A stretch of 48,640 nt of DNA from Chthonomonas calidirosea (lineage in GTDB: Bacteria > Armatimonadota > Fimbriimonadia > Fimbriimonadales > Fimbriimonadaceae). Made by a program: the position numbers and the translations under genes. The notes beneath the pieces were generated by a model, which saw only the letters and a program-made list of their open reading frames with translations, was not told where the DNA came from and did no database searches. Location of the stretch: NCBI GenBank assembly GCA_945882415.1, contig CAMCWC010000018.1, positions 1-48,640 on the forward strand. Reading direction: 5' to 3'. The number at the start of each line of letters is the position of its first letter. Within the stretch, counting starts at the first letter, position 1. Of this stretch, positions 14,285 to 14,550 are shown piece after piece.

Positions 14285-14360
14285 GGATCGTTAGCTCAGT
14301 TGGTAGAGCAGCTGACTCTTAATCAGCGGGTCGTAGGTTCGAGCCCTACACGGTCCACCA
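14285..14360 (+). tRNA. tRNA-Lys (anticodon CUU)
   Basis: A 76-nt cloverleaf. The acceptor arm GGATCGT pairs with ACGGTCC (one T-G wobble), and the D arm contains AGCTCAGTTGGTAGAGC. The anticodon stem GCTGA/TCAGC encloses the loop CTCTTAA with anticodon CTT at 14318-14320, and the T arm contains GGTTCGAGCCC. Discriminator A and an encoded CCA end at 14360. It has its own promoter and a strong terminator about 200 nt downstream; the transcript between them carries two repeat units. Confidence 0.97.
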
Positions 14361-14550
14361 TTCCCACTCTCTCAATCCAGGGCGAGAAGTTCATCCCGCC
14401 GAGCGCAGCAAGGGAAATTGCCAAAGGCAATCGGGAAGCCCTACACGGTCCACCACTCCCACCTTCCCACACCAGGGCGAAAAGTTCACCCCGCCGAGCA
14501 ACGCTCGGGAAACTGCTAAAGGCAGTACGAAATCCGTAAAAGGTCCCCAA
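14342..14550 (+). repeat. 95-bp tandem repeat copying the tRNA-Lys 3' end
   Basis: The last 19 nt of the tRNA (AGCCCTACACGGTCCACCA, 14342-14360) recur exactly at 14437-14455. A decayed third copy occurs at the same 95-nt step (14534-14550, about 12 of 17 matching). The two 95-bp units agree at about 80% by hand alignment. Both contain a six-bp stem around AAA: ATTGCC/GGCAAT at 14417-14431 and ACTGCT/GGCAGT at 14512-14526. The second has one compensatory pair change and one C-G to T-G wobble. The array sits between the tRNA and its terminator, so it is probably transcribed. No gene is seen in 14361-14656. Confidence 0.85.

Follow-up and report, generated by a model that had tools for sequence, protein, structure and literature searches.

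A candidate RtT-like tRNA-tail hairpin element in tandem behind a tRNA-Lys gene of Chthonomonas calidirosea

We report that the tRNA-Lys(CTT) gene in a 48,640-nucleotide stretch of Chthonomonas calidirosea DNA (family Fimbriimonadaceae; GenBank assembly GCA_945882415.1, contig CAMCWC010000018.1, positions 1 to 48,640; hereafter the window) is followed by an array of two 95-nt units, which probably represents an RtT-like tRNA-tail hairpin element that originated at the DNA level, expanded in tandem and can be dispensed with by the host. The units share one anatomy and fold, their arm and tail match the local tRNA, and they recur, often in tandem, behind other tRNA genes and in another phylum; their distribution is patchy and includes decayed copies. 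One precise plan, with a GAGAAG box, an arm that is complementary to the host tail and a junction fixed at nt 59 of the tRNA, is common to the Escherichia coli tyrT repeats and to units behind many tRNA genes and a tmRNA gene in other phyla. A one-operon curiosity thereby becomes a class for which rules of insertion, of spread and of RNA processing at the 3' ends of tRNAs can be tested. Neither the host-matched arm nor the spread across phyla is described in the literature searched, which left most subscription papers outside its scope.

The tRNA-Lys array and its 95-nt units

The tail of the tRNA-Lys gene occurs three times at steps of exactly 95 nt (Table 1): in the gene itself, as a perfect copy and as a decayed copy (ATCCGTAAAAGGTCCCCAA vs AGCCCTACACGGTCCACCA). 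A tail match of at least 15/19 within the 300 nt downstream of tRNA-Lys was seen in just 13 of 20,000 mononucleotide shuffles. The 95-nt copies (14342-14436 and 14437-14531) are 80% identical in the repeat search, and the three tails, their spacing and the similarity of the intervening units are as the initial annotation of this DNA had described them. The annotation had also pointed to a six-bp stem around AAA with a T-A to C-G and a C-G to T-G change, and both are present, since the stem (P4 in Table 1) reads ATTGCC/GGCAAT in unit 1 and ACTGCT/GGCAGT in unit 2. The 3' side of P2 is lost in unit 2.

Table 1. Features of the tRNA-Lys locus in the window
Feature	Position	Strand	Basis
tRNA-Lys(CTT), host gene	14285-14360	+	ARAGORN, Rfam RF00005
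First copy of the repeated tail (tRNA-Lys nt 58-76)	14342-14360	+	
Unit 1 spacer, pyrimidine-rich, differs from congener trailers	14361-14378	+	
Unit 1 5' arm AGGGC, complementary to tail nt 59-63 (GCCCT, 14438-14442)	14379-14383	+	own-tail test, structure count
Unit 1 GAGAAG box	14384-14389	+	near-invariant in alignment A4
Unit 1 folded core	14394-14436	+	alignment, covariation
Unit 1 core P2	14394-14398/14432-14436	+	
Unit 1 core P3	14399-14404/14408-14413	+	
Unit 1 core P4	14417-14422/14426-14431	+	
Second tRNA-Lys tail copy, 19/19	14437-14455	+	repeat search
Unit 2 spacer	14456-14473	+	repeat search
Unit 2 5' arm AGGGC	14474-14478	+	alignment
Unit 2 box, GAAAAG	14479-14484	+	alignment
Unit 2 core, 53.3 bits	14489-14531	+	
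Unit 2 P3, intact	14494-14499/14503-14508	+	
Unit 2 P4, intact	14512-14517/14521-14526	+	
Third tail copy, decayed, 13/19	14532-14550	+	sequence; congener trailers
Native tRNA trailer and intrinsic terminator (stem 14561-14591)	14551-14591	+	

The sole strong intrinsic terminator downstream of tRNA-Lys is the one listed in Table 1; hence the array sits between the gene and its terminator and, as had been proposed, is probably transcribed together with tRNA-Lys in the window genome. The decayed third tail is followed by AAGATTTAAATTG and then by the terminator, an arrangement that resembles the tRNA-Lys trailer of congeners (in G008, for example, tRNA-Lys is directly followed by AGATTTAGGTTCAAA and a terminator). 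Judged from this resemblance, the decayed copy is probably the original 3' end of tRNA-Lys and, given the congener-type trailer behind it, both units would have been placed between the original 3' end and the tRNA body.

From 5' to 3' the unit consists of an arm, the GAGAAG box, a short linker, the stem P2 (TCCCG/CGGGA), the hairpins P3 and P4 and a tail from nt 59. The arm (5-11 nt) is complementary to the host tRNA from nt 59 onward and in its full form covers the T-stem strand together with the last two bases of the T-loop and as many as four of the acceptor; the tail copy begins at T-loop nt 59 and either stops at CCA or continues into the trailer. Tandem G.A steps are frequent in P3 and P4 (CGAGC..GCGAG, TGAAC..GTGAA), and the window units are mostly Watson-Crick paired there. 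With its nt-59 tail copy, its arm and box, and its tandem units ahead of the terminator, the window array has an RtT-like architecture.

We drew the structure by hand on an alignment of 14 elements, towards which it therefore leans; 75.3% of the cells of this alignment are paired, compared with 64.0 in shuffled and 27-41 in slid controls. In the same alignment 48 cells are changed on both sides (19.1 when shuffled), the covariation score is 0.291 (0.115 when shuffled) and changes on both sides are seen in 9 of the 11 arm-tail pairs. The initial annotation had taken the covarying stem as a sign of selection at the RNA level; the covariation does lie well above both controls, but it does not single out selection on a host RNA, because the same would be expected of a hairpin spreading as a DNA element.

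Recurrence, local matching and decay of the unit

When 60 relatives were searched at the DNA level, the inter-tail sequence turned up behind tRNA-Ala (L011), tRNA-Lys (L012) and, in a different genus, tRNA-Val (L013), and each of these units closes with a copy of the tRNA tail of its own locus, not of that of the window. Covariance model R1 has matches in 23 of 81 relatives, the best of them behind Ala, Lys, Arg, Ser, Val, Pro and Glu tRNA genes; these are frequently in tandem and, in several relatives, frequently located past the tRNA's own terminator. Model R2 matches 16 of the 291 genomes of the window's phylum, all 16 in the window's family. Taken together, the covariance models place the core in these 16 genomes and in Balneolota-type genomes, behind tRNA genes or 3' halves (Ala, Lys, Val, Arg, Ser, Asn, Glu, Leu and Trp, with 3' half tRNAs for Asn, Trp and Glu) and behind tmRNA. 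Genome groups were sampled, with stricter filters above 40 genomes, and all genome counts are therefore lower bounds. Tandem copies are found at L046, L054 and L157, some arrays consist of near-identical units, and the trailer is duplicated at L140 and L157. At three loci a full core is nested within the core of another unit (L024 1494-1604, L063 1503-1617, L046 1511-1626).

The match of the unit to its own tRNA was assessed in a hand-compiled table of arms and tails from 26 loci. The arm matches its own tail at 7.4 of 11 positions vs 5.1 for other tails, and the tail copy matches its own tRNA at 15.9 of 18 positions vs 8.6 for other tRNAs; for arm and tail each, the observed sum was reached by none of 100,000 permutations. 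At nt 59, 60, 61, 62 and 63 the arm agrees with its own tail in 26, 25, 25, 26 and 24 of the 26 loci, where other tails lead one to expect 0.61, 0.54, 0.96, 1.0 and 0.34. Fresh-looking units have 10-11 matched arm bases (L012, L040, L041 and E. coli Tyr), and Balneolota-type arms often have exactly 7, corresponding to nt 59-60 plus the T-stem strand. Neither the complementary arm nor the recurrence behind other tRNAs with their own tails was part of the initial annotation.

A pattern scan of GTDB genomes showed that Rhodohalobacter sulfatireducens carries the unit. Its phylum has 8 unit-bearing genomes among 296, in which the host genes are those of tRNA-Leu, tRNA-Arg and tRNA-Ser and of a tmRNA. 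At L146 (1391-1600) tandem units lie directly 3' of the tmRNA (ssrA) gene. Searched at relaxed thresholds, Rfam gave families at chance level alone, both near the window unit and at the tmRNA locus. We do not claim Spirochaetota as a further phylum: one short contig among 247 genomes matched (L085, from a Spirochaeta MAG), and this may be a binning error since the remaining 246 genomes are without the unit. Pattern matches in Geothrix and Aeromonadales MAGs (L086, L089) have no tRNA, are apparently coding and were judged to be due to chance, and the scan of viral contigs gave a single match, inside a coding gene.

The weaker R1 matches, of which G002 and G017 contribute many, are not located at tRNAs, and they have just the core in common with the units. 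They include dispersed intergenic repeats (L043, L045, L047, L050 and L052 in G002; L016, L048, L053 and L064 in G017) in which the core CCCGCCGAGC..GCGAGGGAAATG..GAATCGGG is present and the tRNA tail absent, some having complementary arms of their own. Units with the tail ATCCTAGTCGGGCAGCCA were seen at L123 (G004) and L122 (G013), where no tRNA gene was found nearby.

Among congeners the unit is absent from most orthologous tRNA-Lys genes. The sister species G014 is 90.2% identical to the window over 12785-14364 (≈1.6 kb upstream), diverges afterwards and retains a 23-nt remnant of the unit, GCGAGAAATTGCCAAAGGCAATC. This is close to the absence from related genomes that the initial annotation had named as counting against its reading, and since most congeners are without the unit at tRNA-Lys and G014 has a remnant only, the unit appears dispensable to the host. 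The patchy pattern and the remnant thus make a hairpin that inserts and expands at the DNA level likelier than an essential host RNA. No clean empty/filled pair at one tRNA locus was seen among the loci compared, and we therefore infer insertion rather than loss from the scatter of the units. The G014 sequence (L093) aligns with the window as far as the tRNA and resumes at 18375; window positions 14365-18374, ≈4 kb with two large minus-strand ORFs, are missing there and represent a variable segment adjoining the array.

Comparison with the tyrT repeats of E. coli

The E. coli K-12 tyrT unit follows the same plan, with GGGGAAGGAT, GAGAAG, a core and a tail copy. More generally, the tyrT-type arm GGGGAAGG(A/G)T is the complement of the tRNA-Tyr tail ATCCTTCCCC and precedes GAGAA(G/C), the core and the nt-59 tail. 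The four tyrT units are the top four R2 matches in that 3-kb E. coli stretch, at 12-14 bits each. The window array and the RtT RNA/tyrT repeats (RF00391, rttR, tpr) are alike in trailing a tRNA as tandem units and in having an nt-59 tail copy, a complementary 5' arm, GAGAA(G/C) and a hairpin core; they differ in unit size (95 nt in the window, 178 nt in E. coli K-12) and in their cores. Moreover, a stable RNA is produced from the E. coli rtT-type unit, whereas the window unit is known here from sequence alone. A search of the window genome (G000) with RF00391 gave no match at E up to 1, with the E. coli control matching, and in the Rfam scan of the window the tRNA alone, and not RtT (RF00391), reached the gathering score. 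A case for homology between the units of E. coli and those of Fimbriimonadaceae accordingly draws on common anatomy, not on a significant model score.

In the order that was reached via an Aeromonadales genome, and that by its matches holds the kin of E. coli, RtT matches are present in 84 of 394 genomes. In 30 loci examined there, 47 tail copies follow Tyr, Pro, Ser and Lys tRNAs and each copies its own tRNA; GAGAA[GCT] precedes 40 of the 47, and the arms mostly follow their tail. This tracking extends to Tyr genes with differing tails (L179 vs L190), where ATCCTTCTCCC goes with the arm AGAGAAGGAT and ATCCTTCCCCC with the arm GGGGAAGGAT. Six units at L190 were scored as unmatched since a GAGAA within the arm was taken as the box; read directly, they match. 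The 3' end of the annotated rttR RNA coincides exactly with the CCA of the tail copy. We know of no accepted origin of the E. coli tyrT (rtT) repeats. In Actinobacillus, RtT RNAs beside tRNA-Asn and tRNA-Lys genes have been seen on Northern blots (PMC4986893).

Origin of the units and alternative explanations

According to the DNA-level reading, an event at a tRNA 3' end would repeat tail and trailer and add the hairpin, and tandem expansion would follow through recombination or slippage between tail copies. The displaced copy would then decay while the tRNA's own tail stays intact, so that the insertion would be harmless. The recognised structure may be the hairpin formed by the arm paired with the tail, the GAGAAG bulge and the core, and the copied tail and its complement might derive from tail copying in a fold-back event or from folded single-strand recombination. 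The array in the window genome would be co-transcribed with the tRNA and dispensable to the host. Tandem arrays, duplicated trailers, nested cores and the scatter over tRNAs and phyla are all consistent with a DNA element whose target is the 3' end of a tRNA and which leaves that tRNA intact. A farther-reaching version, which we put forward tentatively, is that the units are cross-phylum non-coding mobile elements that target tRNA and tmRNA 3' ends and, on insertion, flank themselves with a copy of the tail and, at the opposite side, with its reverse complement; if true, the hairpin of each new copy would be fitted to the gene that now hosts it and E. coli tyrT would be the first example seen.

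The stable RNA of the E. coli unit and an arm-tail pairing that amounts to a tRNA-like 3' end make an RNA role a serious rival. The unit would then be freed from the tRNA precursor as a small RNA that ends in CCA with tail and arm paired, as has been proposed for E. coli rtT RNA, and selection on the RNA would maintain the pairing; this is possible, and we regard it as rather unlikely. It would account for the covariation among the 14 elements, for arms that follow their tails even between the two types of Tyr gene, and for the rttR end at CCA, and the whole window array folds with z = -3.3, in a stretch that takes in the terminator hairpin. Single window units, however, fold no better than shuffled sequences, core sequences vary between groups, many units are positioned past the tRNA terminator, and congeners and G014 are without the unit or have it decayed. 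The E. coli rtT repeat is reported as an RNA linked to the stringent response (cited in PMC2965389 and PMC4986893), in which PMC2965389 notes a possible role for it.

Other DNA-level routes appear less probable than an element of its own. Had the tRNA 3' end simply been duplicated in place and then drifted, three tails at exact 95-nt steps with the last one decayed would be explained; but the core also recurs, in other genomes and another phylum, next to different tRNAs and together with their tails, which refutes this reading, and we give it almost no weight. We also doubt strongly that the units are by-products of P4-type tyrosine integrases, for which the tRNA tail would be the att site, tail repeats would be left behind and the hairpin would belong to the att region. 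Such att sites typically show tail repeats of 18-24 nt, a P4-type integrase (PF00589 + PF13356), a 3' half tRNA-Leu and a unit adjoin in Rhodohalobacter and on a second contig, and the 3' half tRNAs Asn, Trp and Glu point the same way. Against this, a crude motif scan of 20-kb neighbourhoods found most tRNA-linked units without a clear integrase, the tRNAs are intact at most loci, and an att site leaves the tail-complementary arm and the conserved core unexplained. No transposase or integrase accompanies the window unit, a motif scan showed no tyrosine-recombinase-like ORF within 4 kb of it, and in this the array departs from the att repeats of P4-type islands. Units and att repeats are alike in the direct repeat of a tRNA 3' end, and the P4-type integrases next to units on two contigs, with the 3' half tRNAs at several loci, show that islands use the same tRNA ends.

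Still more improbable in our view is that Y1 (RAYT) transposases move the units as REP-like palindromes. G002 and G017 do contain dispersed related cores, each of G002 and G003 has one weak match ≈0.3 kb from a Y1 gene, and rtT has been compared with BIME/REP repeats and called similar to them (PMC2965389). Yet Y1 genes are absent from the unit-bearing genomes G070 (11-12 matches), G020, G031 and G068, for which reason we rejected a Y1 transposase as the required mover. Single-strand insertion by Y1 enzymes is, moreover, not known to us to duplicate a tRNA tail. Like REP/BIME palindromes and MITEs, the units are short, non-coding and hairpin-forming, with dispersed or nested copies in some genomes; they differ in their fixed junction within tRNA gene sequence, their host-matched arms and in needing no Y1 gene.

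Two models of the junction were dropped. Reverse transcription stopping at m1A58 would place the junction at nt 59, but tail copies often pass CCA and the junction is the same in E. coli, which to our knowledge is without m1A58. A tRNA minihelix with a paired acceptor does not hold as a general rule, the acceptor being unpaired in most Balneolota-type units, where the arm runs for 7 nt. The P4-type integrases beside a 3' half tRNA-Leu and a unit lie at L139 70-1638 and L085 250-1855, and the weak core matches G002:C6:731120 (L083) and G003:C15:7468 (L033) lie near the Y1 genes G002:C6:730688 and G003:C15:7784, respectively.
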